A stretch of DNA of 34,220 bases from Deltaproteobacteria bacterium. GTDB lineage: Bacteria > Desulfobacterota > Binatia > DP-6. The DNA lies in NCBI GenBank assembly GCA_005879795.1, contig VBKJ01000143.1:1-34220 (forward strand), read 5' to 3'. The position numbers were made by a program, and so were the translations under genes. The notes beneath the pieces were generated by a model, which saw only the letters and a list, made by a program, of their open reading frames with translations, was not told the origin of the DNA and made no database searches. Shown piece after piece: positions 19,287-34,220 of the stretch. Position 1 is the first letter of the stretch; the number at the start of each line of letters is the position of its first letter.

Positions 19287-19356
19287 AGATGCGCGTCGAG
19301 CGGGTCGCGACGCGTGTCTCGGGTGGAGCCTGCGCGCGTCGTCGCCTCTCGCTCCC

Positions 19357-20136
19357 TCACGGCCGCCGGGCGACGATCTGGACGACGCGCAGGGCGCCGT
19401 CGGCGAGCGCGGCGGCGAGGGCTTCGCGCTCGCGCACGAGCTGGGCGCAGCGCGCATCACGCCGCAGGCGGGCGAGGAGGCGGTCGCGGGCGGCGAGGAC
19501 CTGGGCGGAGCGCTCCGGGGCCTCGGCGGTCCGGTCCCGCACCGCGAACTCGATGAAGCCCAGCCGTTCGAGCGCCGCCGCCCGCTCCGCCGTCGTGGAG
19601 GGACGCCAGCCGGGAATCTCGGGCGCGGAGCGGGCCTCGGGGCGCACGAGATCCTGGATGGCGAGCGTGCCGCCGCGCCGGAGCACCCGATGCGCCTCGC
19701 CGAGGGCCGCCAGAGGGTCGCGCAGGCGGGGCAGCGTCTCGAGGATCCAGACGTGCGTGAAGTGCGCGGCGCGGAAGGGGAGGGCGGCGGGGTCGGCCGG
19801 CACGAGGCGGACCTGCGCCGAGAGCCCCGTGCGGCGCGTGAGCGATTCGCCGGCCTCCGCCTCGGCGCGGCTCGCTGCCGTGCCGACGACCTCGCACCCG
19901 AGACGCGCCACGAGCCAGCGCGACGTGCCGCCGAGACCGGCGCCCAGGTCGAGGACGAACTCGTACTTGCGGAAGATGCCGCGCGCGGCGAGGGCGTCGA
20001 GCAGGTGGAAGCCGGTGCCGCTCGGGTGCTCGAGCCCGAGGTACGGGAGGCCGCGCGGCAATGGCGCGGCGGCCTTGTGCGCCCGCGCCAGGGTCTCGAT
20101 CGCGGCCGCGAGCCGCGCCACGGGCGCCTCGGACAT
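19357..20136 (-). CDS. SAM-dependent class I methyltransferase
   Basis: A 259-residue Rossmann-fold methyltransferase. Motif I is VLDLGAGLGGTSRWLV (61-76), followed by GCEVVGTAASRAEAEAG, VRLVPADPAALPF and FTHVWILETLPRL (motif post-I/II), then AHRVLRRGGTLAIQDLV (motif III). It looks like the UbiE/Methyltransf_11 group of small-molecule or lipid methylases. The start is taken at ATG 20136; a GTG at 20154 would add six residues. The gene converges on the amidase and diverges from the metallopeptidase. The substrate is unknown. Its position near the hopanoid operon makes an isoprenoid substrate conceivable but unproven. Confidence 0.88.
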   Translation of the reverse strand: MSEAPVARLAAAIETLARAHKAAAPLPRGLPYLGLEHPSGTGFHLLDALAARGIFRKYEFVLDLGAGLGGTSRWLVARLGCEVVGTAASRAEAEAGESLTRRTGLSAQVRLVPADPAALPFRAAHFTHVWILETLPRLRDPLAALGEAHRVLRRGGTLAIQDLVRPEARSAPEIPGWRPSTTAERAAALERLGFIEFAVRDRTAEAPERSAQVLAARDRLLARLRRDARCAQLVREREALAAALADGALRVVQIVARRP

Positions 20137-20198
20137 TGCGAGCGCCCCTACCACAGAATTGGCCCGGACGCCGCGCTCGCGCTAAGCTCGCCTCGCAC

Positions 20199-20744
20199 GT
20201 GCTCACGGACCGTCCCATCCGTCCGCCCGGGCCGCGGCCGGCGTGGTACCGGCGCCTGCCCGCGTCGCTGAGAAGGGTCGCGGCGGCGAGCGATCGCGTG
20301 CCCACCCTGCCGCTGCGCGCCGGTGCGACGCTCAAGGGTGCCGTGGCGGCGCTGCCGGCGGTGCTCGCCACCGGTCGGGAGCGCGACGTGCAGGCGCTCG
20401 CGCAGCGCATCAGCGACGACATCTGCGCCGGGCTCGGTGCCCCGGGCGTACGCGTGCGCGTCGCCGCGCGTCGGCCTCCGCTGCGCGGAGGGGAGCTCCA
20501 GGGCCTCTACACGGCGGCCGACGGCCGTGGCCGCGACCTCGTGACCGTGTGGATGCTCACCGCCAAGCGCGGGCAGGTGGTCGCCTTCCGCACTTTTCTC
20601 CGCACGCTCCTCCACGAGCTCTGCCATCACCTCGACTACACGCTGCTCCACCTGCGGGACTCGCTGCACACGCAGGGTTTCTATCAGCGAGAGTCGAGCC
20701 TCTTTCACGCGCTCGACGCGGGGAGACTCGACGCCGAGCATTGA
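20199..20744 (+). CDS. Small HEXXH zinc metallopeptidase-like protein
   Basis: A 181-residue protein from GTG at 20199. The zinc-protease motif is H139-E140-L-C-H143 in RTLLHELCHHLDYTLL. A short helix and SLHTQGFYQRESSLF follow, and Glu165 is a candidate third ligand, as in gluzincins. The upstream half (YTAADGRGRDLVTVWMLTAK) looks like a beta-sheet edge. No signal peptide is seen, so it is probably cytosolic. The family resembles small uncharacterised minigluzincin-like proteins. The -35 box of the next operon overlaps its stop codon. The function is unknown. Confidence 0.75.
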   Translation: MLTDRPIRPPGPRPAWYRRLPASLRRVAAASDRVPTLPLRAGATLKGAVAALPAVLATGRERDVQALAQRISDDICAGLGAPGVRVRVAARRPPLRGGELQGLYTAADGRGRDLVTVWMLTAKRGQVVAFRTFLRTLLHELCHHLDYTLLHLRDSLHTQGFYQRESSLFHALDAGRLDAEH

Positions 20745-20769
20745 CAGACCCGCCAGGATTCTCTATACG
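20741..20769 (+). promoter_or_regulatory. Sigma-70-type promoter ahead of the mevalonate-hopanoid operon
   Basis: A perfect TTGACA (20741-20746), a 17-base spacer and TATACG (20764-20769, 4/6). This is the best consensus promoter I found in the window. Transcription would begin near 20776, leaving a leader of about 150 bases before mvaD. The -35 box overlaps the metallopeptidase stop codon. Confidence 0.6.
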
Positions 20770-20847
20770 GCGCAACTCGACGAGGCGTGTGTATCCCCGC
20801 GTGTCCGGACCGTTTTCCCGGGCCACGGGGATTTTCTTGGATCGCTG

Positions 20848-20879
20848 CCTGACCGATCGGTCTATAGTGGTCGGTCAGG
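20848..20879 (+). promoter_or_regulatory. TetR-type operator overlapping a TATAGT box, upstream of mvaD
   Basis: An inverted repeat CCTGACCGA (20848-20856) / TCGGTCAGG (20871-20879) with a 14-base centre. The left half also forms a perfect 12-bp palindrome GACCGATCGGTC (20851-20862). There are thus three half-sites of GACCGA/TCGGTC around TATAGT (20863-20868), a 5/6 match to a -10 box without a well-spaced -35. GACCGA-type palindromes are common operators of TetR-family repressors. The repressor gene is not in the window. Confidence 0.55.
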
Positions 20880-20929
20880 GGGCGGATGTGCGTGAGCTGA
20901 GCCAAAGAGATAGAAGACGGCCGGCGGGA

Positions 20930-21907
20930 ATGACTGCCGCAGCGACCGCGCGTGCCAACGTGAACCTCGCGCTGGTGAAGTACTGGGGGAAGCGCGATGC
21001 GGCGCTCAACCTGCCGGCCACCGGGAGCATCTCGCTCACGCTCGACGGCCTCTCGGTCGAGGCATCGGTCGCCTTCGGCGGCGGTGAGGCCGACCGGATC
21101 GAGATCGACGGCGCCGAGGCCGCGGGCGACGAGGCGCTCCGGGTGGCGCGCTTCCTGGACCTCGTGCGCGCCGAGGCCGGCCGGCGCGAGCGCGCGCTCG
21201 TCACCACGCGGAGCACGGTGCCGCGCGGTGTCGGCCTGGCGTCCTCGGCGGCGGCCTTCGCGGCGCTGGCGCTCGCGGCGAGCCGTGCCGCCGGGATTGT
21301 GCTCGATCCGCCCGCGCTCTCGGCGCTCGCCCGCCGCGGCTCGGGCTCGGCGGCGCGCTCGATCTTCGGCGGCTTCGTCGAGTGGCGGCGCGGCGAGCGG
21401 CCCGACGGGCGAGACTCGGTGGCCGAGCCGCTCGCGCCGCCGGACTTCTGGGACGTGCGGGTGGTGGTGGCGGTGACGTCGAGCGCGCCGAAGGCGGTCT
21501 CGTCGCGCGCCGGCATGGAGCGCGCCGCGACCTCGCCCTTCTACCCCGCCTGGGTGGCGGGGGCCGAGGCGGACCTGGCGGAGGCGCGGGCCGCGATCCG
21601 CGCGCGTGACCTGGATGCCCTCGGCCTCGTCGCCGAGCACAGCGCGCTCGAGATGCACGCGGTCGGGCTGGCGGCGCGCCCGCCGCTCGTCTACTGGCGC
21701 GCGGCCACCGTCGGCTGCCTGGAACGGGTGTGGCAGCTCCGCGCCGAGGGCACGCCCGCCTTCGCGACTATCGACGCGGGCCCGCAGGTGAAGGTGCTGT
21801 GCGCACCCGCCGACGCAGGCCCCGTCGCCGAGGCGCTGCGCGCCGTGCCCGGCGTCGAGCGCGTGCTCACCTGCGCGCCGGGGGGCGGCGCCGAGGTGGC
21901 GGCATGA
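20930..21907 (+). CDS. mvaD: Diphosphomevalonate decarboxylase
   Basis: Converts mevalonate-5-diphosphate to isopentenyl diphosphate with ATP. The 325-residue GHMP-fold protein starts at ATG 20930. RANVNLALVKYWGKRD (9-24) with LPATGSISLTLDGL is the family N-terminus, and STVPRGVGLASSAAAFAAL is the phosphate-binding loop. RRGSGSAARSIFGGFVEW (catalytic-site region) and SSAPKAVSSRAGME follow. The conserved Asp is expected in the late TIDAGPQVKVL segment, which is present. It is the first gene of the ten-gene operon; its stop overlaps the next ATG (ATGA). The leader region carries the promoter and TetR-like operator. Confidence 0.96.
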   Translation: MTAAATARANVNLALVKYWGKRDAALNLPATGSISLTLDGLSVEASVAFGGGEADRIEIDGAEAAGDEALRVARFLDLVRAEAGRRERALVTTRSTVPRGVGLASSAAAFAALALAASRAAGIVLDPPALSALARRGSGSAARSIFGGFVEWRRGERPDGRDSVAEPLAPPDFWDVRVVVAVTSSAPKAVSSRAGMERAATSPFYPAWVAGAEADLAEARAAIRARDLDALGLVAEHSALEMHAVGLAARPPLVYWRAATVGCLERVWQLRAEGTPAFATIDAGPQVKVLCAPADAGPVAEALRAVPGVERVLTCAPGGGAEVAA

Positions 21908-22935
21908 GGCGCGTCACGGCGAGTGCGCCCGGGAAGCTCTTCCTCGCCGGGGAGTACGCCGTCCTCGCGGGCGCGCCCGCGCTGGTCGCGGCCGTCGACC
22001 GTCGCGCGGACGTCCACGTGACGCTCGAGTCCGGCGCGGGCCCGCTGGTCGTCGATTCACTCGCCGAGGGGAAGCGGCGCGTGATCGACGACCCCGAGCG
22101 CGGCCCGCTCGAGGGCGGTGACGCCGGTGCGATCCTGGCCGCGTGGCGCGCCGTCCGGGCCGCGGCGCCGTCGCTCGCCGCCGTGCGTGCCGAGGTGGTG
22201 GTCGACTCGCGCGCGTTCCTCGCCGACGGCCGGAAGCTCGGGCTCGGGAGGAGCGCCGCCACCGTCGCGGCCGCCGCCGCCGCCTTTCTCGCCGGCGTTG
22301 GGCGCCAGGACCGGGGTGAGATGCTGGACGCGGCGCTGGCTGCGCACGCGCTCTTCCAGGAAGGGCGCGGAAGCGGCGCGGACGTGGCCGCGGCGGCGCG
22401 CGGCGGCGTGCTCGAGTTCCGGCGGAGCGGGGGGCGGATCACGGTCGCGGCGCGGGCCCTGCCGCGCGGGCTCCACCTGCTCGTCGGCTGGAGCGGCGAG
22501 GGCGGGGCGACCGACCCGATGCTCCGGCGCTTCGCGACCGGGCCGGGCGCGCCCCGCGCGCTCGGCGAGCTCTCGGCTGCCGCCGAGCGGGCGGCCACAG
22601 CGGTCGAGCGCGGCGACGGCGCCGGGCTGCTCGACGCCGTGGCGAGCTCGGCCGACCTGCTCGCCCGGCTCGGTGCGGAGACGGGCATCCCGATCGTGAC
22701 GCCGGCGCTCGCGCGCCTGGTGGCCGCCGCGCGGCGGGTGGGTGCGGTCGCGAAGCCCTCGGGGGCTGGCGGCGGCGACTGCGGGATCGCGCTCGCGACC
22801 TCGCCGGCCGAGGCCGACGCGGTCGCCGCGGCCTGGCGTGCGGCGGGCATCGTGCCGCTCCCGGTCGCGATCGCGGCCGAGGGCGTCCGCCACGAGGCGC
22901 GCGACGAGGTCGCGCATGCGGTGTCGCTTGGCTGA
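21904..22935 (+). CDS. mvaK2: Phosphomevalonate kinase
   Basis: Phosphorylates mevalonate-5-phosphate to the diphosphate. This 343-residue GHMP kinase shows TASAPGKLFLAGEYAVLAG (5-23), the GHMP motif 2 GLGRSAATVAAAAAAFL, the acidic helix motif LFQEGRGSGADVAAAARGG and the C-terminal PSGAGGGDCGIAL. The last is diagnostic of bacterial phosphomevalonate kinase rather than mevalonate kinase. Its start overlaps mvaD by 4 bases, and the end overlaps fni by 20 bases. With mvaD and mvaK1 it forms the classical three-kinase/decarboxylase lower mevalonate branch. Confidence 0.94.
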   Translation: MRRVTASAPGKLFLAGEYAVLAGAPALVAAVDRRADVHVTLESGAGPLVVDSLAEGKRRVIDDPERGPLEGGDAGAILAAWRAVRAAAPSLAAVRAEVVVDSRAFLADGRKLGLGRSAATVAAAAAAFLAGVGRQDRGEMLDAALAAHALFQEGRGSGADVAAAARGGVLEFRRSGGRITVAARALPRGLHLLVGWSGEGGATDPMLRRFATGPGAPRALGELSAAAERAATAVERGDGAGLLDAVASSADLLARLGAETGIPIVTPALARLVAAARRVGAVAKPSGAGGGDCGIALATSPAEADAVAAAWRAAGIVPLPVAIAAEGVRHEARDEVAHAVSLG

Positions 22936-23983
22936 GACGATCAGCGACCGCAAGCGCTCGCACCTCGCGCTGTGCGAGGGCGAGGAGGTCGAGTTCGCCG
23001 GCAAGACGACGCTCCTCGAGGAGGTCGACCTGGTGCACGACGCGCTCCCCGAGCTCGCCGTGGACGAGGTCGACGTCTCGACCACGCTCCTCGGCAAGCG
23101 GCTCCGCGCCCCGCTGCTCATCACCGGCATGACCGGCGGCACCGACGAGGCCTCGGCGATCAACCGCGGGCTGGCGCAGGTGGCCGAGGAGCACGGCATC
23201 GCCTTCGGCCTGGGCTCGATGCGCGCCATGCAGCGCAAGCCCGCGCTCGCCTGGACCTTCGAGGTGCGGGCGCACGCGCCGACCACGCTCGTGCTCGCCA
23301 ACCTGGGCGTGGTGCAGGCCGGCGGGCTCTCCTCGGCCGAGGTGGAGGCGCTCGTGCGGCGCGTGGGCGCCGACGCGCTCTGCCTCCACCTGAACCCGGC
23401 GCAGGAGCTGATCCAGCCGGGCGGCGACCGCGACTTCCGCGGCGGGGTCGAGACGATCAGCCGACTCGTCCGCGAGCTGCCGATGCCGGTGGTGGTGAAG
23501 GAGACCGGCTGCGGGATCTCGCGCCCCGTCGGCGAGCGGCTCGTCGGTGTGGGCGTGCGCACCGTCGACGTCTCGGGCGCCGGCGGCACGTCGTGGATCA
23601 AGGTGGAGGCGCTGCGGGCGGGCGCGGCGGAGCGTGACCTCGGCGCGCTGTTCGCCGACTGGGGCATCCCGACGGCGGCGGCGCTCGTCGGGCTCCGCGG
23701 CCTCGGTCTCGAGCTGGTTGCGAGCGGCGGGGTGCGCACCGGCCTCGACGTGGCGAAGACGGTCGCGCTCGGCGCGCGGGTGGCGGGGGTGGCGCTGCCG
23801 GTCTTCCGGGCCTACCAGGAAGGTGGGCGGCAGGCGGCAGGAGAGTTCATCGACCGGCTCACGGCCGGCCTCAGGACGGCGATGGTGCTCACCGGCGCGC
23901 GGGATCTCGATGCCCTCGCCCGGGTGCCCGTCGTGCTGGGGCAGCGGCTGCGCGAGTGGCTCGCAGCGGGAGGAGGAGCATGA
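22916..23983 (+). CDS. fni: Type 2 isopentenyl-diphosphate delta-isomerase
   Basis: FMN-dependent interconversion of IPP and DMAPP. The 355 residues begin at ATG 22916; a TTG at 22928 is an alternative start (351 residues). ISDRKRSHLALC (N-terminal signature), LLITGMTGGT, FGLGSMRAM, LVLANLGVVQ, LHLNPAQELIQPGGDRDF, VVVKETGCGIS, VDVSGAGGTSWIKVE and ELVASGGVRTGLDVAK are all typical of Fni/IDI2. Type 2 isomerase is the usual companion of a bacterial mevalonate pathway. The end overlaps mvaA as ATGA. No redox partner gene is seen nearby. Confidence 0.96.
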   Translation: MRCRLAETISDRKRSHLALCEGEEVEFAGKTTLLEEVDLVHDALPELAVDEVDVSTTLLGKRLRAPLLITGMTGGTDEASAINRGLAQVAEEHGIAFGLGSMRAMQRKPALAWTFEVRAHAPTTLVLANLGVVQAGGLSSAEVEALVRRVGADALCLHLNPAQELIQPGGDRDFRGGVETISRLVRELPMPVVVKETGCGISRPVGERLVGVGVRTVDVSGAGGTSWIKVEALRAGAAERDLGALFADWGIPTAAALVGLRGLGLELVASGGVRTGLDVAKTVALGARVAGVALPVFRAYQEGGRQAAGEFIDRLTAGLRTAMVLTGARDLDALARVPVVLGQRLREWLAAGGGA

Positions 23984-25263
23984 GCAGCTCACGGATCGCG
24001 GCGTTCTATCGTCTGACGGTGGAGGAGCGGCGGCGGAAGCTCGCCGAGGCTCTCGACCTCTCGCCCTCGGAGATCCAGGCGCTGGGAGCGGCGGACGCGC
24101 TCCCGCTCGACGTTGCCGACATCATGGTCGAGAACGCCGTCGCCACCTTCGCGCTGCCCTTCGGCGTGGCGCTCAACTTCCAGGTGAACGGCCGCGACCA
24201 CGTGATCCCGATGGTGGTCGAGGAGCCGTCGGTGATCGCCGCGGCGTCCAACGCCGCGCTGGTGGCCCGCGGGGGCGGCGGTTTCACCGCCGAGGCCGAC
24301 CCGGGTGCCATGATCGGGCAGATCCAGCTCGTCGACGTGACCGACCCGGGCGCGGCGGTCGAGCGCCTGGGCGCGGCGCGCGCGCGCATCCTGGCCGCGG
24401 CCGAGGAGCTGACGCCGGGCCTCTGCCGGCGGGGCGCCGGCCCGCGCGACGTCGAGGTGCGGCTCGTGCGCAGCGCGCGCGGCGAGACGATGGTGGTGGT
24501 GCACGTGCTCCTCGACACCGGCGACGCGATGGGCGCCAACGCCGTCAACTCGCTGGTCGAGGCGCTGGGGCCGATGGTCGCGGAGATCGCGGGCGGCACG
24601 ACCTGTCTCCGCATCCTCTCCAACCTGGCCGACCGCCGGCTGGCGCGCGCGGCGGTGCGCATCCCGTTCGCGGCGCTCGCGCGCGACGGCATGGACGGGA
24701 CTCAGGTGGCCGAGCGGATGCTCTCCGCGTACGAGTTCGCGGCCGCCGACCCGTATCGGGCCGCCACCCACAACAAGGGGATCATGAACGGCATCGACGC
24801 GCTCGCGGTCGCCACCGGCAACGACTGGCGCGCGATCGAGGCGGGGGCGCACGCCTACGCGAGCCGGGCGGGCCGCTACGGCTCGCTCACCACCTGGGGG
24901 ATCGAGGACGGGCACCTGGTGGGCTCGATCGAGCTGCCGATGGCGGTCTCCACGGTCGGACCGGTCGTGCAGTCCCATCCGCGCGTGCGCCTGGCGCTCC
25001 GGCTGCTGGGCGTGGCGAGCGCGCGCGAGCTGGCGGGCATCATGGCGGCGGTGGGACTCGCCTCCAACCTGGGAGCGATGCGGGCGCTCGCCACGGAGGG
25101 CATCCAGAAGGGGCACATGGCGCTGCACGCGCGCGCCGTCTCCCATGCGGCGGGCGCGCGCGGCGAGGAGGCCGAGGAGCTGCGCCGCCGGCTCCTCGCC
25201 GCGGGCGAGGTGAAGATCGACCGCGCCCGCGAGCTGCTGCGTGCCCTGGAGTCGCGCTCGTGA
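23980..25263 (+). CDS. mvaA: Hydroxymethylglutaryl-CoA reductase, class II
   Basis: Reduces HMG-CoA to mevalonate, the committing step. The 427 residues have the class II layout: MVENAVATFALPFGVALNF (49-67), PMVVEEPSVIAAASNAA (77-93, catalytic Glu), VLLDTGDAMGANAVNSLVE (catalytic Asp), AATHNKGIMNGIDA (catalytic Lys) and EGIQKGHMALHAR near the C-terminus (catalytic His). There is no membrane anchor, so it is soluble. AGGAGG lies just before the ATG at 23980, which overlaps the fni stop (ATGA), so this gene has its own good ribosome site inside the operon. It ends at a GTGA overlap with mvaK1. Confidence 0.97.
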   Translation: MSSSRIAAFYRLTVEERRRKLAEALDLSPSEIQALGAADALPLDVADIMVENAVATFALPFGVALNFQVNGRDHVIPMVVEEPSVIAAASNAALVARGGGGFTAEADPGAMIGQIQLVDVTDPGAAVERLGAARARILAAAEELTPGLCRRGAGPRDVEVRLVRSARGETMVVVHVLLDTGDAMGANAVNSLVEALGPMVAEIAGGTTCLRILSNLADRRLARAAVRIPFAALARDGMDGTQVAERMLSAYEFAAADPYRAATHNKGIMNGIDALAVATGNDWRAIEAGAHAYASRAGRYGSLTTWGIEDGHLVGSIELPMAVSTVGPVVQSHPRVRLALRLLGVASARELAGIMAAVGLASNLGAMRALATEGIQKGHMALHARAVSHAAGARGEEAEELRRRLLAAGEVKIDRARELLRALESRS

Positions 25264-26186
25264 GTCTCCCCGCCCGCGGCCGCGCCGCGGGGAAGGTGAT
25301 CCTGCTCGGCGAGCACGCCGTGGTGTACGGCCGGCCGGCGCTCGCCGCGGCCCTGGGCCTCGGGCTCGCGGTCGAGGTGACGGCGTCGGACGGAGCGCTC
25401 CGCGTCGAGAGCGACCGCGCGGCGCTGGCGGACGATGCGCGGCCCGCGGCGCTCGCCACCGAGGCGGCGCGCGCGCTCGGCCTCGAGCCGCGCGGCATGA
25501 CCGTCCGCATCCGCTCCCAGCTGCCGGCGGGCGCCGGGCTCGGCAGCTCGGCCGCGCTCGCGATCGCCGTGCTGCGCGCGCTCGCGGCGGCAGCGGGACG
25601 GCGGCTTCGGCCCGACGAGGAGCTGGCGCTCGGCCGGAGCCTCGAGGCGATCTTCCACGGCCATCCCTCGGGCATCGATCCGGCCGCGGCGGCGCAGCCG
25701 GGCGGCGGCTGCATCCGCTTCGTCCGCGGCGAGCCGCCCGCCATCGGCGCCCTGCGCACCGCCCGCCCGCTGCCCCTCGTCATCGCGCTCGGTCCGCCGC
25801 GCAGCACGGGCGCCGCGGTGGGCGGGCTGCGGGCGCGCTGGGAGGCGGACCGCGTGCGCCACGAGCGGCTCTTCGACCGGGTGGCGGCGGTGGTCGAGGC
25901 CGGCGCGCGGGCGGCGGAGGCCGGCGACCTCCCGGCGCTCGGCCACGCCTTCGACGAGAATCAGGCGCTGCTCGCCGCGCTCGGCGTGTCGGCGCCGGCG
26001 GTGGAGGCGCTGGCAGCCGCGGCGCGCGCGGCCGGCGCGCTCGGCGCGAAGCTCACGGGCGGCGGCGCCGGCGGGGCCGTGATCGCGCTCGCGGCGGAGC
26101 CTGAGCGGGTGGCCGCGCAGCTTCGCACGCAGCAGGTCGAGACGATCGTCGTGCGCGTGGGCACGGCCGAGGAGGCGGCAGCATGA
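25260..26186 (+). CDS. mvaK1: Mevalonate kinase
   Basis: Phosphorylates mevalonate to mevalonate-5-phosphate. This 308-residue GHMP kinase starts at a GTG inside the mvaA stop (GTGA). GKVILLGEHAVVYGRPALAA (11-30) is the mevalonate kinase N-terminus. LPAGAGLGSSAALAIAVLRA (88-107) is the ATP-binding motif, FHGHPSGIDPAAAA carries the catalytic Asp, and GAKLTGGGAGGAVIALA is GHMP motif 3. The long upstream open frame is an Arg/Gly-rich shadow of fni and mvaA. It ends with ATGA at shc. Slightly short but within the family range. Confidence 0.95.
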   Translation: MSLPARGRAAGKVILLGEHAVVYGRPALAAALGLGLAVEVTASDGALRVESDRAALADDARPAALATEAARALGLEPRGMTVRIRSQLPAGAGLGSSAALAIAVLRALAAAAGRRLRPDEELALGRSLEAIFHGHPSGIDPAAAAQPGGGCIRFVRGEPPAIGALRTARPLPLVIALGPPRSTGAAVGGLRARWEADRVRHERLFDRVAAVVEAGARAAEAGDLPALGHAFDENQALLAALGVSAPAVEALAAAARAAGALGAKLTGGGAGGAVIALAAEPERVAAQLRTQQVETIVVRVGTAEEAAA

Positions 26187-28141
26187 GCAGCGAAGGACGG
26201 CTCGTCCTGGTCGGCGGCACGGAGGCCGCGGACGGCGGGCTCGGGGCGCGCGCCGGGCAGGCGATCGCGCGCGCCACGCAGTACCTGGTCGCGACCCAGC
26301 ATCCGCACGGCTACTGGCACGCGCCGCTCGAGGCGAACGTGACCATGGAGGCCGAGTACGTCTTCTTCAACCGCATGCTCGGGCGGGACCGGCCGGACCT
26401 CGACCGGCGCATGGCCGAGCGCATGCTGGCGCTCCAGCAGGCGGACGGGAGCTGGCCGCAGTACCGGGAGGGCCCGGGCAACCTCTCGACCACGATCGAG
26501 GCGTACTTCGCGCTCGAGCTCGCGGGACTTAAAGCGGACGAGCCGGCGCTCGCGCGGGCGCGCGACTTCATCCTGGGCCACGGCGGCCTCGCCCGCGCCG
26601 GCGTCTTCACGCGCTTCTGGCTCGCCTACTTCGGGCAGTTCCCCTGGGCCGGGCTGCCCGCGCTGCCGGTCGAGCTGGTGCTCCTCCCGCCCTGGTTCCC
26701 GGTCAACATCTACGCCATGTCGAGCTGGGCGCGCGGCACGGTCGTGCCCCTGGCGCTGCTCGCCGCGCACCGGCCGTCGGTCCCGACGCCGCCCGGCGCC
26801 CAGCTGGGCGAGCTCTGGACGCGGACGCCGACGCGCGCCGATCTGGCCTTCCCGCGCTCGCGCGAGCTGATCACCACGAGGAACTTCTTCCTCGCGCTCG
26901 ACCGTGCGATCAGGCTCCTCGGTCAGAGCCCGTGGAAACCGCTTCGCCGCCGCGCCATCGCGCGCGCGATCGAGTGGCTGGTGCGCCACCAGGACAGGAA
27001 CGGGCAGTGGGGCGGCATCCAGCCCGCCATGCTGAACTCCGTGCTCGCGCTCCACACGGTCGGCTTCGCGCCCGAGCACCCGGCGATGGTGAGCGGCATC
27101 CAGGGCGTCGACGACTTCCTGGTCGAGTGCGAGGGGACGCTCGTGTACCAGCCGTGCGTCTCCCCCACCTGGGACACGGCGCTCGCCATGAAGGCGCTGC
27201 TCGAGTCGGGGACGGATCCGGCGCACCCGATGCTCGGGCGCGCCGCCGAGTGGCTGATCGCGAACCAGATCTTCCGCCCCGGCGACTGGTCGGTCCTGAA
27301 CCCCGCGCTCGAGCCGGGCGGCTGGGCCTTCGAGTTCGCGAACGACTCGTACCCGGACGTGGACGACTCGGCGGTGATCCTGATGGTGCTGGGTCAGCTC
27401 CCGATCGCCGCCACCCCTGCCGGCAGGCGTGCCATCGCCTACGGCCTCAACTGGACGCTCGGCATGCAGAGCCGGAGCGGCGGCTGGGCGGCGTTCGACA
27501 CCGACAACACCGCGGGCTTCCTGAACCGCATCCCCTTCGCCGACATGGAGGCGATGATCGACCCGCCGACCGAGGACCTGACCGGGCGGCTCCTCTCGCT
27601 CCTGGGCGCGTACGGCTATGGCGCGGACTTCGGCCGCGCGCGCCGCGCGCTCGAGTTCGTGCGCCGCACCCAGCGCCCCGACGGCTCGTGGTGGGGCCGC
27701 TGGGGCGTCAACTTCATCTACGGCACGTGGTCCGTGCTCGACGGCCTCGCCGCCATCGGCGAGGACCTGCGTGCGCCCTGGGTGCGGCGCGCCGTCGAGT
27801 GGCTCAAGGCGCGTCAGAACCCCGACGGCGGCTGGGGCGAGACGGTCGCCTCGTACGACGACGAGTCGCTGGCGGGGAAGGGGGAGAGCACGGCGTCGCA
27901 GACGGCGTGGGCGCTCCTCGGGCTCATGGCCGCGGACGGGGTCGCGAGCCCGGCCGTGCAGCGCGGCACCGACTGGCTCGTCCGCACCCAGGGCGCGAAC
28001 GGCACGTGGACGGAACGGCTCTTCACCGGCACCGGCTTCCCGCGCCACTTCTACCTCCGCTACCACCTCTACCGGCACTACTTCCCGCTCATGGCGCTCG
28101 GACGCTACGTCCGGCTGGTGGGAGAAGGGGAGAGGAGATGA
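26183..28141 (+). CDS. shc: Squalene-hopene cyclase
   Basis: Cyclises squalene to hopene/diplopterol, a monotopic membrane-bound class II triterpene cyclase. The 652 residues are the typical length. The protonating DXDD motif is DVDD at 392-395 in SYPDVDDSAVIL. QW-type repeats are seen, for example QQADGSWPQY, QDRNGQWGG, GGWAFEF, PDGSWWGRWGVNFIYGTW and QNPDGGWGET. CVSPTWDTALAMKAL is the family hexad around the active site, and the C-terminus RYHLYRHYFPLMALGRY is typical. It is embedded between mvaK1 and mvaS with 4-base overlaps, tying hopanoid output directly to mevalonate supply. Confidence 0.97.
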   Translation: MSSEGRLVLVGGTEAADGGLGARAGQAIARATQYLVATQHPHGYWHAPLEANVTMEAEYVFFNRMLGRDRPDLDRRMAERMLALQQADGSWPQYREGPGNLSTTIEAYFALELAGLKADEPALARARDFILGHGGLARAGVFTRFWLAYFGQFPWAGLPALPVELVLLPPWFPVNIYAMSSWARGTVVPLALLAAHRPSVPTPPGAQLGELWTRTPTRADLAFPRSRELITTRNFFLALDRAIRLLGQSPWKPLRRRAIARAIEWLVRHQDRNGQWGGIQPAMLNSVLALHTVGFAPEHPAMVSGIQGVDDFLVECEGTLVYQPCVSPTWDTALAMKALLESGTDPAHPMLGRAAEWLIANQIFRPGDWSVLNPALEPGGWAFEFANDSYPDVDDSAVILMVLGQLPIAATPAGRRAIAYGLNWTLGMQSRSGGWAAFDTDNTAGFLNRIPFADMEAMIDPPTEDLTGRLLSLLGAYGYGADFGRARRALEFVRRTQRPDGSWWGRWGVNFIYGTWSVLDGLAAIGEDLRAPWVRRAVEWLKARQNPDGGWGETVASYDDESLAGKGESTASQTAWALLGLMAADGVASPAVQRGTDWLVRTQGANGTWTERLFTGTGFPRHFYLRYHLYRHYFPLMALGRYVRLVGEGERR

Positions 28142-29361
28142 GCGTCGGCATCGAGCGGCTGCAGGTCTACGTGCCGCAGTACGCGCTGCGCCTGACCGAT
28201 CTGGCAGCGGCGCGTGACGTCCCGCCGGAGAAGCTGACCGCGGGCCTCGGCGTGCAGGAGATGGCGATCGCACCGCCCTGCGAGGACGTGGTCACGCTGG
28301 CGGCGACGGCGGGTGCGCGCCTCCTGCGTGCGGCGCGCGTCGATCCGGAGGAGATCGGCATGCTGCTGGTCGCCACCGAGACCGGCGTCGACCACTCGAA
28401 GCCGGTCAGCATCTTCGTGCACGACCTCCTCGGCATCGGGCGGCGCTGCCGGGTCTACGAGCTCAAGCACGCGTGCTATGCCGGCACGGCGGCGCTCATG
28501 ACCGCGGCCGACTGGGTGCGCGCGGGCGGCGGCCGCGCGCGGCGCGCGCTCGTCATCGCGGCCGACATCGCGCGCTACGAGCTCGGCTCGCCCGGCGAGC
28601 CGACGCAGGGCGCGGGGGCGGTCGCCATGCTGGTCGGGTCCGCGCCGCGCGCGCTCGGGCTCGGCGAGCAGAGCGGGACCTACGCGGGCAACGTCCACGA
28701 CTTCTGGCGCCCGCTCGATCGCCGCGAGGCGATCGTCGACGGCAAGTACTCGGTCGCGTGCTACCTGGACGCCCTTGCGGGCGCCTTCACGGCCTACCGT
28801 GGCCTCGAGCGGCCACCGCTCGGCCCCGGCGAGGCGCTCTCCGACCGCCTGGTGCGGCTCCTCTACCACACGCCCTACCCCAAGATGGCGATGAAGGCGC
28901 ACCGGCGCCTGGTCGAGATCGACTGGGCCGCCGCCGGCCGAGCCGTCGCGGAGGATGCGGCCGCGGCCTCCTACCGGGATCGGGCAGCGCCCGGGCTGGC
29001 CGCCGTCGCGCGCGTCGGCAACACCTACACCGCCTCGCTCTACCTCTGCCTCGCCGCGCTGCTCGAGGCCGAGGGCCGCGCGCTCGCGGGCGCGCGCCTG
29101 GGGCTCTTCTCCTACGGGAGCGGGTGCTGCGCGGAGTTCTTCACCGGGACGGTGCCGAGAGGTGTCGAGGCCGTGGCCGACGCGGGCGTGGCGGCGCTAC
29201 TTGCGGGGCGGACCTTCATCGACGTGCCGGCCTACGAGCGGCTCGTCCGCGGCGGCGAGGCCGGGGGCGAGCCGCCCGCGGACTTCGCCGGCGAGTTCGT
29301 CTTCGCCGGCGTCCGCAACCAGCGGCGCGAGTACGCGCGCCCGGGAGCGCTGGCGGCGTGA
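28138..29361 (+). CDS. mvaS: Hydroxymethylglutaryl-CoA synthase
   Basis: Condenses acetyl-CoA with acetoacetyl-CoA to HMG-CoA. The 407-residue thiolase-fold enzyme shows GIERLQVYVPQYALRL (N-terminus), VATETGVDHSKPVSIFVHDL (catalytic Glu about 81), ELKHACYAGTAALMTA with the acyl-accepting Cys113, NVHDFWRP, YHTPYPKMAMKAHRRL and NTYTASLYLCLAALLE, then LFSYGSGCCAEFF. All are typical of bacterial MvaS. It lies unusually between shc and hpnC rather than beside the other mevalonate genes. GGAGAGGAG precedes its ATG. No acetoacetyl-CoA thiolase gene is in the window. Confidence 0.96.
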   Translation: MSVGIERLQVYVPQYALRLTDLAAARDVPPEKLTAGLGVQEMAIAPPCEDVVTLAATAGARLLRAARVDPEEIGMLLVATETGVDHSKPVSIFVHDLLGIGRRCRVYELKHACYAGTAALMTAADWVRAGGGRARRALVIAADIARYELGSPGEPTQGAGAVAMLVGSAPRALGLGEQSGTYAGNVHDFWRPLDRREAIVDGKYSVACYLDALAGAFTAYRGLERPPLGPGEALSDRLVRLLYHTPYPKMAMKAHRRLVEIDWAAAGRAVAEDAAAASYRDRAAPGLAAVARVGNTYTASLYLCLAALLEAEGRALAGARLGLFSYGSGCCAEFFTGTVPRGVEAVADAGVAALLAGRTFIDVPAYERLVRGGEAGGEPPADFAGEFVFAGVRNQRREYARPGALAA

Positions 29362-30254
29362 GCCTCGGCGTCGCCGCTCGCGCCCCCGTGGGCGCCGTCG
29401 ATCCCGCCCGGCTGGCGGCGGCCTACGCCCACTGCGCGCGCGTCGCGCGCGGGCACTACGAGAACTTCACCATCGGCTCGTGGCTGCTCCCGCGCCGGCT
29501 CCGCCACGACCTCGCCGCGGTCTACGCCTTCGCGCGCGGCGCGGACGACCTGGCGGACGAGGGGGCCGACGCCGGGCGCATCGGGCGGCTCGAGGCATGG
29601 GAGGCGAAGCTCCTCGCCTGCGCGCGCGATCCGGCGCGTGCCGACGATCCCGTCTTCCTGGCGCTCGGCCACACGGTCGCGCGCCGCGACCTGCCGCTCG
29701 AGCCGCTGCGCGACCTGCTCGCCGCCTTCCGGCGCGATGCCGCCGGCGACACGGCCGCCTTCCCGGCCTTCGCCGACGTCCTCGCGTACTGCCGCTGCTC
29801 GGCCAACCCGGTCGGGCGCATCGTGCTCGCGCTCTTCGGCTACCGCGACGCGGAGCGCCAGGCGCGCTCGGACGACATCTGCACCGCGCTCCAGCTCACC
29901 AACTTCTGGCAGGACGTGGCGGGCGACCTGGGGCGCGGCCGCGTCTACGTGCCGCAGGAGGACCTGGATCGTTTCCCCGAGAGCCGTGCCGCTCTGGCGG
30001 CGCGCGCCGTGAACGACGACTTCCGCCGCCTCCTCGCCTTCGAGGTCGCCCGCACGCGCGACCTCTTCGCGCGCGGCCTCCCCCTCGCCGCCATGGTGAG
30101 CGGCCGGCTCGCGCGCGAGGTGCGCGTCTTCGCGCGCGGCGGGCTCGCCGTGCTCGGCCGCATCGCGGCCGCCGACTACGACGTCTTCGCGCGCCGCCCG
30201 ACGCTCACGCGCGGCGACCTCGCGCGCCTCGTGCTGCGAGGGCTCCTCGGATGA
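29358..30254 (+). CDS. hpnC: Hydroxysqualene synthase HpnC
   Basis: Converts presqualene diphosphate to hydroxysqualene. The 298-residue squalene/phytoene synthase fold starts at a GTG overlapping the mvaS stop (GTGA). GHYENFTIGSWLLPRRLRHD, then AAVYAFARGADDLADEG (first Asp-rich motif) and YCRCSANPVGRIVLALFGY lead to ALQLTNFWQDVAGDLGRGRVYVP (second Asp-rich motif). NFWQDV and RCSANPVG distinguish HpnC from HpnD. Order hpnC-hpnD-hpnE is the canonical bacterial squalene module. The family and order make the assignment safe, although single-enzyme activity is not shown by sequence. Confidence 0.95.
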   Translation: MSLGVAARAPVGAVDPARLAAAYAHCARVARGHYENFTIGSWLLPRRLRHDLAAVYAFARGADDLADEGADAGRIGRLEAWEAKLLACARDPARADDPVFLALGHTVARRDLPLEPLRDLLAAFRRDAAGDTAAFPAFADVLAYCRCSANPVGRIVLALFGYRDAERQARSDDICTALQLTNFWQDVAGDLGRGRVYVPQEDLDRFPESRAALAARAVNDDFRRLLAFEVARTRDLFARGLPLAAMVSGRLAREVRVFARGGLAVLGRIAAADYDVFARRPTLTRGDLARLVLRGLLG

Positions 30255-31153
30255 GCCTCCCGGCGCTGGAGCTCCGCTGCCCGCTCTCCGCCGCCTACGA
30301 CCACTGCGAGGCGCTCACCCGCCGCGCCTCGTCCAACTTCTACTGGGGCTTCCGCCTGCTCTCCCACGAGCGGCGCCGCGCGCTGTGCGCCGTCTACGCC
30401 TTCTGCCGCGCCGCCGACGACATCGCCGACGAGCCCGGCGGCGCGCGCGACCCCGCGCGCCGGCTCGCGCGCTGGCGGGCCGAGCTGGAGGCGGTCTACG
30501 CCGGCTGCCCGCGCCATCCGATCGGCGTCGCGCTCGCCGACACGGTCGCGCGCTTCGCCATCCCGCGCGCGCACTTCGACGCCGTGGTCGCCGGCGTCGA
30601 GATGGACCTCCGCCGCGACCGCTACGAGACCTGGGAGAACGACCTCGAGGAGTACTGCTGGCGCGTGGCGGGCGCGGTCGGCCTCATCTGCATCCGCGTC
30701 TTCGGCTACCGGAACCCGTCCGCCGAGCAGTACGCGGTCGAGCTGGGCCTGGCCTTCCAGCTGACCAACATCCTGCGCGACGTGGCCGAGGACGCGCAGC
30801 GCGGCCGCATCTACCTCCCGCGCGCCGACCTGCGCCGCTTCGGCTGCCGCGAGGAGGACGTGCTGGTCGGCCACTGCACCGAGGCGTTCCGGCAGGTGAT
30901 GGCGTTCGAGTGCGCGCGCGCGGGCGAGCACTACGGCCGGGCGCGCTTCCTCCTCGCCGAGGAGGACCGGCAGTCGCTCGCGCCGGCGGAGGCGATGCGC
31001 TTGATCTACGAGCAACTCCTCCGCCGCATCATGTTCCGGCACTACGACGTCTTCGGGCCGAAGGTGCGCCTCACGCGACCGGAGAAGGCGGGCCTCGCGG
31101 TCGCAGCCTGGGTGCGTCCGCACCTGAGCTTCTACTACTGGCTCGCGGGATGA
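30251..31153 (+). CDS. hpnD: Presqualene diphosphate synthase HpnD
   Basis: Joins two farnesyl diphosphates to presqualene diphosphate. The 300-residue protein has the squalene/phytoene synthase fold. SNFYWGFRLLSHERRRAL leads to AVYAFCRAADDIADEPGG (first Asp-rich motif). MDLRRDRYETWENDLEEYCW, RVAGAVGLICIRVFGY and LAFQLTNILRDVAEDAQRGR IYLP (second Asp-rich motif) follow. A phytoene synthase has the same fold, but the pairing with HpnC/HpnE and shc favours HpnD. ATG overlaps hpnC and the end overlaps hpnE, both as ATGA. FPP synthase, which supplies its substrate, is not in the window. Confidence 0.94.
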   Translation: MSLPALELRCPLSAAYDHCEALTRRASSNFYWGFRLLSHERRRALCAVYAFCRAADDIADEPGGARDPARRLARWRAELEAVYAGCPRHPIGVALADTVARFAIPRAHFDAVVAGVEMDLRRDRYETWENDLEEYCWRVAGAVGLICIRVFGYRNPSAEQYAVELGLAFQLTNILRDVAEDAQRGRIYLPRADLRRFGCREEDVLVGHCTEAFRQVMAFECARAGEHYGRARFLLAEEDRQSLAPAEAMRLIYEQLLRRIMFRHYDVFGPKVRLTRPEKAGLAVAAWVRPHLSFYYWLAG

Positions 31154-32520
31154 CGGCCCGCCGCGTGGTCGTGGTGGGCGGCGGCTTCGCGGGCCTCGCG
31201 GCGGCGGTGCGGCTCGGGCGCGGGGGCGCGCAGGTGACGCTCCTCGAGCGCCGGCCGTTCCTCGGCGGGCGCGCCTACTCCTTCGCCGACCCGGCGACGG
31301 GCGAGGTGGTGGACAACGGGCCGCACGCGCTCATGGGCGCGTACACCGAAGCGCTCGACTTCCTCCGCGAGATCGGCGCGTCGGCGAAGCTCCGCGTGCA
31401 GCCGCGGCTTCGCGTGGCGCTCGCGCACCCGGAGCTGGGCGTCGGGGAGGTCGCCGCGCCGCCCGTGCCGGGGCCGCTCCAGGCGCCGCTGGCGCTCCTT
31501 CGCTACCGGCTGCTCGCGCCCGGCGACCGCGTTCGGCTCCTGGCCGGCGCGCTGCGCCTGACCGCGCGGGACAGAGCGCTCGCGGGGCGGACCGTGGCCC
31601 AGGCGCTCGCCGACGTCGGGCAGTCGCGCGCAGCCTGCGAACGCTTCTGGCATCCGCTCGCGATCGCGACGCTCAACGAGGCGCCCGAGATGGCGGCCGC
31701 GGCGCCGTTCGCCGCCGTCCTCCGCCGCGCCTTCTTCGCCGGCGCGCGCGCCGCGCGCTTCGCCCTCGCGGCCGTGCCGCTCTCGGAGCTCTACACCGCC
31801 GATGCGCGCCACGCGATCGAGGCCGCGGGCGGGAGCGTCGTGACCGGCGCGGCCGTGGCCTCGCTCGCGCTCGAGGCCGAGCACGCCCGGGCGGTCCTGC
31901 TGCGCGACGGCCGCCGCGTCGACGCGGACGCCGTCATCCTCGCCGTGCCGTGCGCCGCGCTGCTGCGCCTGCTGCCGCCCGCGCTGCGCGCTGCGCCGCC
32001 CTTCCGCGCCCTCGCCGCCGTCGGCACCTCGCCGATCGTGAGCGTGCACCTGTGGCTCGACCGGCCGGTTGGCTGGGGGTCGTCGTTCCTGGGGCTCCTC
32101 GGCGGCCGCGCGCAGTGGCTCTTCGACTGCGGGCCGGCGCGCGACGGCGGGCGTCGCGTGGCGAGCGTCACCAGCGGCGCCCGCTTCTGGAACGATGCTA
32201 GCGACGAGGCGATCGCGGCCGAGGTGCTGGCCGACGCGGGCGCCGTCCTGCCCGCGCTGCGCGCCGCCCGCTGCACACGCGCGCTCGTCGTGCGCGAGCG
32301 GCACGCGACCATCTCGCTCACGCCCGCGGCCGACGCCGTGCGGCCGCGGGTGACGACGCCGCTCGCGAACCTCTTCCTGGCCGGCGACTGGGTGCAGACC
32401 GGGCTGCCGGCGACGATCGAGGGGGCGGTGCAGGCGGGGCGAGAGGCGGCGGGGAGGGCGCTCGGGGCACCGCTGGTACGCGCCCGCGCCGAGGCGGCGC
32501 GGCGCGCGGGCGTCGGCTGA
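31150..32520 (+). CDS. hpnE: Hydroxysqualene dehydroxylase HpnE
   Basis: FAD-dependent amine-oxidase-fold enzyme reducing hydroxysqualene to squalene. The 456 residues begin VVVVGGGFAGLAAAVRL, the dinucleotide-binding loop, then LLERRPFLGGRAYSFAD and VVDNGPHALMGAYTEAL. FWHPLAIATLNEAPEMAAA is the HpnE-typical segment, and TPLANLFLAGDWVQTGLPATIEGAVQAGREAA is the C-terminal FAD motif, split here by my reading only. The relatives CrtI/PDS desaturases are similar, but NE(A/x)P and the operon context support HpnE. It is the last operon gene, ending 108 bases before a strong hairpin. Confidence 0.93.
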   Translation: MTARRVVVVGGGFAGLAAAVRLGRGGAQVTLLERRPFLGGRAYSFADPATGEVVDNGPHALMGAYTEALDFLREIGASAKLRVQPRLRVALAHPELGVGEVAAPPVPGPLQAPLALLRYRLLAPGDRVRLLAGALRLTARDRALAGRTVAQALADVGQSRAACERFWHPLAIATLNEAPEMAAAAPFAAVLRRAFFAGARAARFALAAVPLSELYTADARHAIEAAGGSVVTGAAVASLALEAEHARAVLLRDGRRVDADAVILAVPCAALLRLLPPALRAAPPFRALAAVGTSPIVSVHLWLDRPVGWGSSFLGLLGGRAQWLFDCGPARDGGRRVASVTSGARFWNDASDEAIAAEVLADAGAVLPALRAARCTRALVVRERHATISLTPAADAVRPRVTTPLANLFLAGDWVQTGLPATIEGAVQAGREAAGRALGAPLVRARAEAARRAGVG

Positions 32521-32628
32521 GCCTTCTCGGTTCCGACGGCGCGGGCCTTCCCGGTTGGTCGAGCGAGTCTCCTACGCAGGCGCGGCCCGCCGTCGGCAGA
32601 GCGTCAGAGCCGAGCCGGCGAGGAATGC

Positions 32629-32663
32629 CCCCCGGCCCGTCGCCTCGGGCGACGGGCCGGGGG
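32629..32663. terminator. Strong GC hairpin between convergent hpnE and the Cys-rich gene
   Basis: A perfect 15-bp stem (32629-32643 with 32649-32663, CCCCCGGCCCGTCGC / GCGACGGGCCGGGGG) and a 5-base loop CTCGG. It lies 108 bases after hpnE and 14 bases past the end of the convergent minus-strand gene. There is no T-run on either strand, so it is not a textbook intrinsic terminator. Its location and stability suggest a bidirectional transcript end or mRNA-stabilising stem. Confidence 0.7.
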
Positions 32664-32677
32664 AAGTGTGCGGGCGC

Positions 32678-33457
32678 CTACCAGAGCCCCTCGCGACGAT
32701 CCAGGAACGCACCACTCGGTGAGCCCGGTGTCGTGGTGGTCGTCGTGCTGGGCGGGCAGGGGTTCGGTGTGCAGGTCGCCGAGCCCGAGGGGATCCCGCC
32801 CTGCGCGGTACACTGGCTCGTGTCGCCGACGGAGATGCAGGTATCGAAGGCTCCCGACGCCGACGACTGCACGCAGCACGCGACGGCGCCCGCGATCGTG
32901 GTGGTCGTGGTCGTCGTCGTGGTCGTGGTGGTGCTCCCCCCACCACACGAGCTGCCCGGGCCGCACGCATCGCAGCAGCTCGGCACCGACCCGACGCACG
33001 CCGTGCCGCCATCGGGCGGTCTGCAGTCGTCCGCGCTCCTCCGGATCGAGCACCTCGTGTGGCCTCTGCGGCTGGTGCGGCAGCAGGTCACGAAGCCCGG
33101 CAGGCCGCAGGTCGACTCCTCCGCGCAGGACACCACGGCATCCTCGCACTCGGGCCGCAGCGATCCGTCCTGGATCGCCGCGTCCGCCACCTCGTCCACG
33201 CAGCTCACGTAGTCGTCGTGGCTGGCGGCGCTGGCGCAATCGCATTCGCCGGCCGCCGTCGCGCGCACGACGGCGACCTGATCGGCGTCCTCGGGCGCCG
33301 TGCCGCAGCCGTTCTCGTCGTCGCCGTTCTCGTGAGCGGGGGCGAGGCTGGCGAGCTGCTGCGGATCCTGTCTCTTCGGTACGGCCGCGCGTGGGAGCAG
33401 CACCATCAGGGTGAAAAGCCCGCCCAGAAACAGAAAACCTCGCACTACACTACGCAT
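32678..33457 (-). CDS. Secreted Cys-rich protein with poly-threonine linkers
   Basis: A 259-residue exported protein of unknown role. The N-terminus is a signal sequence (RGFLFLGGLFTLMVLLPRAA). The mature part has 22 cysteines in patterned clusters (ECDC, TCC, SCCDAC, ACC, NPC), suggesting many disulfides. The first Cys-rich module (about 50-165) includes GFVTCCRTSRRGHTRC and GGTACVGSVPSCCDACG. A homopolymeric linker of 12 threonines follows, then a second module (AGAVACCVQSSASGAFDTC, CTAQGGIPSGSATCTPNPC), a second Thr run of 6 and a short tail. Poly-Thr linkers separate extracellular modules and may be glycosylated. GGAGGAAG precedes the ATG at 33457. The Thr codons give a GTGGTC-type repeat on the plus strand. 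Confidence 0.8.
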   Translation of the reverse strand: MRSVVRGFLFLGGLFTLMVLLPRAAVPKRQDPQQLASLAPAHENGDDENGCGTAPEDADQVAVVRATAAGECDCASAASHDDYVSCVDEVADAAIQDGSLRPECEDAVVSCAEESTCGLPGFVTCCRTSRRGHTRCSIRRSADDCRPPDGGTACVGSVPSCCDACGPGSSCGGGSTTTTTTTTTTTTIAGAVACCVQSSASGAFDTCISVGDTSQCTAQGGIPSGSATCTPNPCPPSTTTTTTPGSPSGAFLDRREGLW

Positions 33458-33730
33458 GGCTTCCTCCGTTCCGCCGGGACGAGGTCCGCGCGGTCCCTCG
33501 CCCGATCCCTTCCGGGTTGGTGACCCTGTGCGGTTGCAAACTGGCCAAGTGTGCCTGCGGCGACAATCCCCCGGCCTCCGGCCCAGAACTCCCGAGACGG
33601 GGGAAAGGGCCGTCCCGCGCTTGGGCCCCCGCGACTACCCCGGACGTGAAAGGCGCCTCCCGAGGGACGGGACGCGGACCCCGCGCGGCCAGCTTCCCTT
33701 CGCGCGCGCATCGGGCCGGAGGGGCTCGCC
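33458..33730. other. Gap upstream of the Cys-rich gene, no gene seen
   Basis: About 270 bases, very GC-rich, with no reading frame resembling a family. It contains an imperfect repeat, CTCCCGAGACGGG (about 33588) and CTCCCGAGGGACGGG (about 33657), and several short self-complementary patches. I compared it by eye with cobalamin and c-di-GMP riboswitch consensus sequences on both strands and found no match. Promoter elements for the minus-strand gene should be here, but none is clear. Confidence 0.35.
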
Positions 33731-33877
33731 ATGCACTGCCCGCTCTGCGCCGCCCCCAGCCGCCAACCACCCGCCTTCGTGGAAGGCCGGATAGCCGATC
33801 GCGCGCTACGCGTGCGAGATGGTCTTCACGAGCGCTGGTGCGGCGAGAGGGAGCTCAGGAAGAAGCACCTCCTGTAG
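33731..33877 (+). CDS. Possible 48-residue zinc-ribbon-like protein
   Basis: A short ORF with a good ribosome site (GGAGGGG, 7 bases before the ATG) beginning MHCPLCAAP, a CxxC knuckle. A basic middle (GRIADRALRVRDGLHERW) and a CGERELRKKHLL end follow. Only one further Cys is present, so a full four-ligand zinc site would need His. Codon use is less GC-biased at third positions than in the neighbours. It could be a true small regulator, a fragment of a longer gene, or chance. No family is recognised. Confidence 0.4.
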   Translation: MHCPLCAAPSRQPPAFVEGRIADRALRVRDGLHERWCGERELRKKHLL

Positions 33878-33899
33878 AAAATCCTCGCCGCGAGAACGT

Positions 33900-34220
33900 C
33901 CGCGTAAAATTTACTGGCTCTGGGCGTGCAAGTCTTTCTCCGATCATAGCTTTTGACGTGCAACCGCTGACTCGATCGGCGCGCGCCATCCGCAAGGCCG
34001 GGCGCGTGGCACATGGGTTGCTCGTACACGGATGCAAGGAGAACGAGGTCTATCCGGTCACGAGGCCGGAACCGACGGTGGGCGGCGAGGGGTGGCGCGA
34101 GCCGTCGTCGGAGGTCGCCGGAGGGGGTATTGCACCGCGCTGGGACCTGTAAGGCGGGAGGGAACCCTGCCGATAGCGAGAGGTGCGCGACCTGTCGCCC
34201 GCGGGCGGGCAAGTGCATGT
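33900..34220 (+). mobile_element. Candidate 5' region of a group II intron, running off the window
   Basis: The stretch is free of a plausible gene and looks like structured RNA. It includes CCGG-TCACGAGG-CCGG, a GNRA-capped stem GGC-GCGA-GCC (about 34090) and GGCGGG...CCCTGCC (about 34153-34171). Sequence blocks such as GAACCGACGGTGGGCGGCG and ACCTGTAAGGCGGGAGGGAA match my recollection of domain I of bacterial group II introns. The maturase/reverse transcriptase ORF would lie beyond the right edge. The 5' boundary is not fixed; GTGCA at 33925 and at 33958 are only candidates for the intron's GUGYG start. This rests on pattern memory, so confidence is limited. Confidence 0.42.
34007..34022 (+). 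promoter_or_regulatory. Exact sigma-54 promoter match
   Basis: TGGCAC, five bases, TTGCT at exactly the -24/-12 spacing. The match to the RpoN consensus (TGGCAC-N5-TTGCW) is full-length. Transcription would start near 34034 and read off the right edge. It lies inside the stretch that also resembles a group II intron, so it may be coincidence within a structured RNA. No enhancer-binding site or regulator is visible. Confidence 0.3.

Follow-up and report, generated by a model that had tools for sequence, protein, structure and literature searches.

Why does a complete mevalonate pathway share one run of genes with the enzymes of hopanoid synthesis, and is that run the cell's only source of isopentenyl diphosphate (IPP)? 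Both questions are raised by a 34,220-nucleotide stretch of DNA, here called the window (contig VBKJ01000143.1 of assembly GCA_005879795.1, a Deltaproteobacteria bacterium placed by GTDB in Desulfobacterota, Binatia, DP-6), in which ten genes on the + strand at positions 20930-32520 encode the enzymes of both pathways. We read these genes, with a probability of roughly 0.8, as a genuine operon leading from mevalonate through IPP and dimethylallyl diphosphate (DMAPP) to hopene, which is most likely the sole IPP route of the cell and which falls within a habit of the class of keeping one supply gene in a fixed slot of the hopanoid operon. The operon enzymes would convert acetoacetyl-CoA and acetyl-CoA to mevalonate and on to IPP and DMAPP; a farnesyl diphosphate (FPP) synthase encoded outside the operon would act next, and operon enzymes would then form presqualene, hydroxysqualene, squalene and hopene. 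The genes, with bit scores and cut-offs of the profile matches, are as follows.

20930..21907, + strand: mvaD, diphosphomevalonate decarboxylase (TIGR01240, 246 bits, cut-off 171; 6n0z, E 5.5e-71)
21904..22935, + strand: pmk, probable phosphomevalonate kinase, divergent (GHMP kinase C domain; TIGR01220, 135 bits, cut-off 166; position in the block; ATGA overlap)
22916..23983, + strand: fni, type 2 isopentenyl-diphosphate isomerase (TIGR02151, 363 bits, cut-off 281; start uncertain, 22916 ATG or 22928 TTG)
23980..25263, + strand: hmgr, class II HMG-CoA reductase (PF00368, 350 bits; TIGR00532, 398 bits, cut-off 260; 1qax, E 9e-127)
25260..26186, + strand: mvk, mevalonate kinase, GTG start (TIGR00549, 199 bits, cut-off 163; GHMP N and C domains)
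26183..28141, + strand: shc, squalene-hopene cyclase (TIGR01507, 763 bits, cut-off 431; 1gsz, E 2.5e-173; DVDD motif present)
28138..29361, + strand: hmgs, HMG-CoA synthase (PF01154 and PF08540; TIGR01835, 344 bits, cut-off 360; 5hwq, a solved HMGS, E 4e-107)
29358..30254, + strand: hpnC, hydroxysqualene synthase, GTG start (TIGR03464, 306 bits, cut-off 250)
30251..31153, + strand: hpnD, presqualene diphosphate synthase (TIGR03465, 315 bits, cut-off 279)
31150..32520, + strand: hpnE, hydroxysqualene dehydroxylase (TIGR03467, 396 bits, cut-off 283)

Starts and stops interlock along the whole 11.6 kb: all nine junctions overlap, eight of them by 4 bp (ATGA or GTGA), and the pmk/fni junction by 8 or 20 bp according to the fni start chosen. 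A promoter scan of window positions 19200-34000 found none, which is about the chance expectation. The NCBIfam equivalog cut-offs are passed by eight of the ten proteins, HpnC, HpnD, HpnE and SHC among them, as befits a hopanoid cluster, and the classical mevalonate set (HMGS, HMGR, both kinases and the decarboxylase) is present together with an IPP isomerase. A phosphomevalonate decarboxylase of the archaeal-type branch in place of the MvaD enzyme is not indicated, since NF040704 reached 154 bits against a cut-off of 475 and TIGR01240 was passed. Positions that we take to be catalytic are all retained in the decarboxylase (Lys, Ser, Asp), in HMGS (Glu, Cys, His) and in SHC, and also in HMGR, as judged by eye in an alignment to 1qax. 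The enzyme activities and the co-transcription of the ten genes are predicted from these sequence features. An earlier, sequence-only reading of the window had proposed a ten-gene mevalonate-to-hopene operon in which a full mevalonate route is fused with shc and hpnCDE; profile matches and overlapping ends confirm every gene at the coordinates listed above, and the gene content bears out the fusion.

Genomes, loci and families are denoted below by G, L and f, with G000 the source genome and f1 its order (seven genomes). G000 (4.1 Mb, 280 contigs, 99.6% complete) gave no match to dxr or ispH of the methylerythritol phosphate (MEP) pathway in profile searches of the genome, and the same held for all seven genomes of f1, G000 included; dxr and ispH are likewise missing from the match lists of all 14 f13 genomes. 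The models evidently work on this class, because they match dxr in 119 and ispH in 117 of its 148 genomes. A DXR-II enzyme that might mask an MEP route was considered and set aside: no search for DXR-II was made, but the missing ispH leaves MEP incomplete. As dxr and ispH are absent from G000 and the six other genomes of its order, the operon is probably the only IPP source of G000. The single HMGR match and the single SHC match of this genome both lie within the operon, and its two polyprenyl synthase matches lie on other contigs. For the operon itself, the earlier statement holds that it lacks no more than a thiolase and an FPP synthase. The proposed direct tie of sterol-like lipid output to the supply of IPP has its weight reversed, because without MEP the operon must supply every isoprenoid of the cell.

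The sequence-only reading had named a complete MEP pathway elsewhere as grounds for giving it up; the absence holds in G000 and does not extend to all relatives. In f6, G074 and G076 lack both dxr and ispH and G072 lacks ispH only, whereas G070, G071, G073 and G075 have both genes, as does G077 of f7. Only G075 and G077 combine all ten operon genes with dxr and ispH elsewhere; G070, G071 and G073 carry the mevalonate block with shc and no HMGS over the cut-off. These are the genomes that would fit a dedicated supply, the first two directly and the other three perhaps, in which the mevalonate genes would be reserved for the neighbouring terpenoid product and housekeeping isoprenoids would come from a separate MEP pathway, a functional partitioning described for Streptomyces in the excerpted text of PMC13001223. 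For G000 and the six other genomes of its order we consider this explanation very improbable, as their lack of any dxr or ispH match refutes it here barring seven-fold assembly gaps.

The arrangement is not peculiar to one contig. The order mvaD-pmk-fni-hmgr-mvk followed by shc was found in six of the seven f1 genomes, the contig of the seventh (G002) ending between mvk and shc, and in six of the seven f6 genomes, where the contig of G074 begins inside mvk and runs into shc; in f7, G077 has the block followed by shc, and G078 has no HMGR or SHC match. All ten genes stand in order on a single contig in G000, G001, G003, G004, G075 (in which hpnC and hpnD read as one frame) and G077, and the other f1 genomes show an operon spread over two contigs (G002), one without HMGS (G005) and two clusters (G006). 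Conservation among relatives, which the earlier reading had proposed as a check, is thus confirmed, and a patchwork or contig-only assembly can be ruled out since the operon recurs in the six other f1 genomes and in f6 and f7. In a quick tree of mvaD, fni, hmgr and mvk, with 16 of the 80 named outside loci included and with the f5 rows left out as well as the additional HMGR copy in G003 and in G006, the class forms one clade (Shimodaira-Hasegawa-like approximate likelihood ratio test, SH-aLRT, 99), with Myxococcales next at 95. The mevalonate genes of the class therefore share one origin, contrary to the patchwork that the earlier reading had held out as its refutation, and myxobacterial contamination is unlikely, since the block forms its own clade.

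Around the operon, a methyltransferase gene (window 19357-20136, - strand) is divergent from it and occupies the same place in all six f1 relatives examined. An open reading frame for 181 amino acids (window 20199-20744, + strand), with an HEXXH-like motif, HELCH, and no Pfam match, precedes mvaD and is conserved at this place in five further genomes of f1, and a weak terminator-like site was noted at 20815, between it and mvaD. Elsewhere, a second HMGR in G003 (L041, G003:C186) adjoins a polyprenyl synthase, and f2 loci (L062-L066, L070-L072) hold an HMGR whose score is below that of the operon type and near which no mevalonate genes were detected; most f2 genomes with this lower-scoring HMGR also carry dxr.

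How the fusion may have arisen is suggested by the gene that sits between shc and hpnC. In five fully read loci of MEP genomes (L154 and L155 of f3; L160, L161 and L281 of f17) the order is shc-dxr-hpnC-hpnD-hpnE, and in L154 hpnH, an FPP synthase and hpnA belong to the same gene run as the cassette. Scored by coordinates as shc running into dxr within 600 bp, the adjacency was found in 39 of 41 f3 genomes (in G061 the genes are on different contigs, and G026 has no dxr match), in all five f17 genomes with SHC and in 6 of 16 f2 genomes, where the loci read show one hpnD-like gene after dxr. Outside the class, 30 of the 42 SHC-bearing genomes in the phylum sample were read at shc with flanks of about 1.5 kb, and dxr stood beside shc in none of them. 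Of the 21 class genomes in which HMGS passes its cut-off, 14 have it directly behind shc; hpnC comes next in 13 of these and hpnD in one (the second cluster of G006). The remaining seven genomes, all of f13, have HMGS elsewhere, in a divergent form in six; no shc or hpn gene was present within the stretches of the 14 f13 mevalonate loci read, several of them cut by contig ends, and in G093 and G100 shc-HMGS lies on a different long contig. HpnH over its cut-off was found near the cassette in L154 (f3), L040 (f1, G006), L059 (f6) and L168 (f5).

The class habit would thus be to hold an early isoprenoid-supply gene between shc and hpnC, namely dxr in several MEP lineages and often HMGS in mevalonate lineages, with the other five mevalonate genes additionally fused before shc in f1, f6 and f7. 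In trees the cassette genes, like the mevalonate block, trace to a single origin within the class. The rooted SHC tree (20 outgroup rows) was built from what remained of 69 SHC rows when 18, including ten phylum outgroups, had been left out by eye as long-branched, of another type or partial, so that its class clade refers to cassette-type SHC only. These cassette-type SHCs form one clade, with f3 outermost, then f17 and f2, and the mevalonate types innermost, an order which suggests that the dxr slot came first. In a tree without f3 (the same 18 rows and two more outgroups also omitted), the mevalonate types form one clade at 90. A tree of SHC, HpnC, HpnD and HpnE comprised 32 rows, each having at least two of these genes, and omitted seven long-branched or other-type outgroup loci (L158, L159, L162, L163, L266, L268, L280); one branch parts dxr-type from mevalonate-type rows with support of 97/97. 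Slot labels require five changes on this tree, and therefore HMGS was lost or moved several times.

We infer that HMGS replaced dxr in place, and the pattern resembles the exchange of one pathway for another within an operon, with intermediates that survive in relatives. That the hopanoid operon acted as a docking site, with dxr giving way to HMGS as MEP gave way to mevalonate and with the stages living on in present families, we hold at about even odds. The stages would be a shc-dxr cassette (f3, f17); a mevalonate operon in genomes that keep dxr and ispH at other places (G075, G077); loss of MEP (f1, f13, G074, G076); and, in f5 G069, MEP again in use, whether regained or fallen back on, while a catalytically dead mvaD stays before fni-shc. 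The coupling of precursor supply to hopanoid output may be what selection keeps.

The last of these stages draws on relics. G069, which has dxr and ispH and no HMGR match, carries mvaD-fni-shc-hpnCD-hpnE-hpnH, and its mvaD, full length (L168 12013-12978) and directly before fni-shc, lacks the Lys, P-loop Ser and Asp that we assume to be catalytic, which the other 26 rows keep, one of them ending before the Asp. We read this gene from its residues as catalytically broken and left over from the fused operon, although it may have gained a new function. Two f5 loci were read; in the other, L266 of G067, the genes are ordered differently and no mvaD match was obtained. Decay is visible also in G006, whose first cluster keeps mvaD to mvk and has an SHC without the DXDD motif and an HMGS stretch in two reading frames in which the catalytic Glu, Cys and His are missing at the aligned places; the second cluster, hmgr-shc-hmgs-hpnD-hpnE-hpnH, is seemingly intact.

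Several observations weigh against this account. The hmgs and pmk products score under the curated NCBIfam cut-offs; TIGR01835 and TIGR01220 are still the top-scoring models for the respective proteins, and both names rest partly on gene position. The dxr-first rooting relies on f3, whose branch is long (0.82). The relative order of f17 and f2 is weakly supported, and in the tree without f3 a single clade of f2 and f17 was not rejected (approximately unbiased test, p 0.32). SHCs of other types, namely those of f16 (three), f2 G013 and f5 G067, do not belong to the cassette clade in a tree that used 15 of the 30 outgroup loci. Among genomes with both genes, none has dxr beside shc in f16 (0 of 3), f5 (0 of 2), f6 (0 of 5) or f7 (0 of 1), and the adjacency is also missing from nine f2 genomes. 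The slot is empty in eight mevalonate genomes read (G005, G071, G072, G073, G076, G102, G103 and G104). It is conceivable that dxr and HMGS were inserted independently at one junction of an ancestrally empty shc-hpnC pair; a cassette offers about four junctions, so that a second insertion at the same one would not be very improbable, and an empty slot is seen in several genomes. We nevertheless regard such a coincidence as rather unlikely, given that rows with an empty slot are nested within those carrying HMGS in the trees, resembling loss, and that dxr is present in both f3 and f17, which branch deeply in the rooted SHC tree. Finally, f13 is whole in the rpoB tree and split in the SHC and cassette trees, so that the hopanoid cassette moved between families.

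How far such movement reaches bears on whether the slot pattern reflects inheritance or the spread of HMGS-bearing cassettes between families after the switch, which is possible and somewhat doubtful. In the quick rpoB tree, families with at least two rows hold except f6, and f4, f5, f6 and f7 group at 95 on an unresolved backbone; contrary to it, the cassettes of f6 and f7 are joined by those of G093, G105 and G106 (f13) and of the second G006 cluster. The f1 cassettes, the second cluster of G006 aside, are one clade, and the five-gene mevalonate block tracks family lines, both of which count against such a spread. The HMGS tree is poorly resolved at its base.

Some genomes with an empty slot may obtain HMG-CoA otherwise. 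An archaeal-type HMGS of G005 (PRK04262, 488 bits, cut-off 244), which adjoins a thiolase (L292 1486-3677), is the likely substitute for the enzyme missing from its operon, as judged from its profile match. PRK04262 matches below that cut-off were obtained in G071 (220), G072 (214), G073 (205), G094 (153) and G096 (227), and the match scanned in G076 proved to be a FabH-like protein. Four f6 loci (L055, L056, L057 and L060, of G071, G072, G073 and G076, respectively) thus hold a mevalonate-hopanoid operon in genomes without a convincing HMGS; one guess is that leucine breakdown provides HMG-CoA there.

How cells come to replace an essential pathway by an unrelated one is still an open question for the evolution of isoprenoid synthesis, and a single class seems here to show the before, during and after of such a swap, with the operon slot as its marker. 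The carbon isotopes of hopanes depend on the precursor route, and the change may therefore bear on the use of hopanoids as biomarkers.

Among known systems, the bacterial mevalonate clusters of Streptomyces CL190, whose gene order we take as background, and of Myxococcus share with the present operon the same enzymes in a compact cluster. The Myxococcales were nearest to the mevalonate block of the class among the 16 outside loci treed, and their loci L074, L075, L076, L077 and L082 have fni-hmgr-mvk-mvaD with no shc or hpn gene detected, unlike the operon described here. Streptomyces with mevalonate genes also has MEP, according to the excerpted text of PMC13001223; of such a dual-pathway cluster G000 shows no second route, whereas dxr and ispH are present in G075 and G077. 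The main text of a paper on Binatota (PMC8262859) contains none of the words mevalonate, hopanoid and squalene, and among the papers listed in searches of open-access literature none dealt with a mevalonate-hopanoid operon or with dxr between shc and hpnC. In the portions of PMC5462960 consulted, hpnC-hpnD-hpnE with shc is the usual four-gene hopanoid cluster, for which no mevalonate gene is named, acidobacterial clusters carry ispA or ispH with shc, and the legend of Figure 7 gives mevalonate genes a colour of their own; the present operon differs in its five mevalonate genes before shc and in the HMGS that separates shc from hpnC. Acidobacterium SD22 'Mor1' is, in the same portions, hopanoid-capable with most mevalonate genes and no MEP genes found, but is without hpnCDE and has a putative squalene synthase. 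In the sterol route of Nannocystis, as given in an excerpt of PMC10152446, mevalonate genes and HpnCDE likewise feed a triterpenoid, but the proposed gene locations are dispersed over the genome and the cyclase is an oxidosqualene cyclase. In a Myxococcales metagenome-assembled genome (L084 10007-13138), HMGR directly adjoins a squalene/oxidosqualene cyclase-like gene. Set beside these systems, the Binatia operon is a combination of known kinds, the mevalonate cluster and the hopanoid cluster, and not a new kind.

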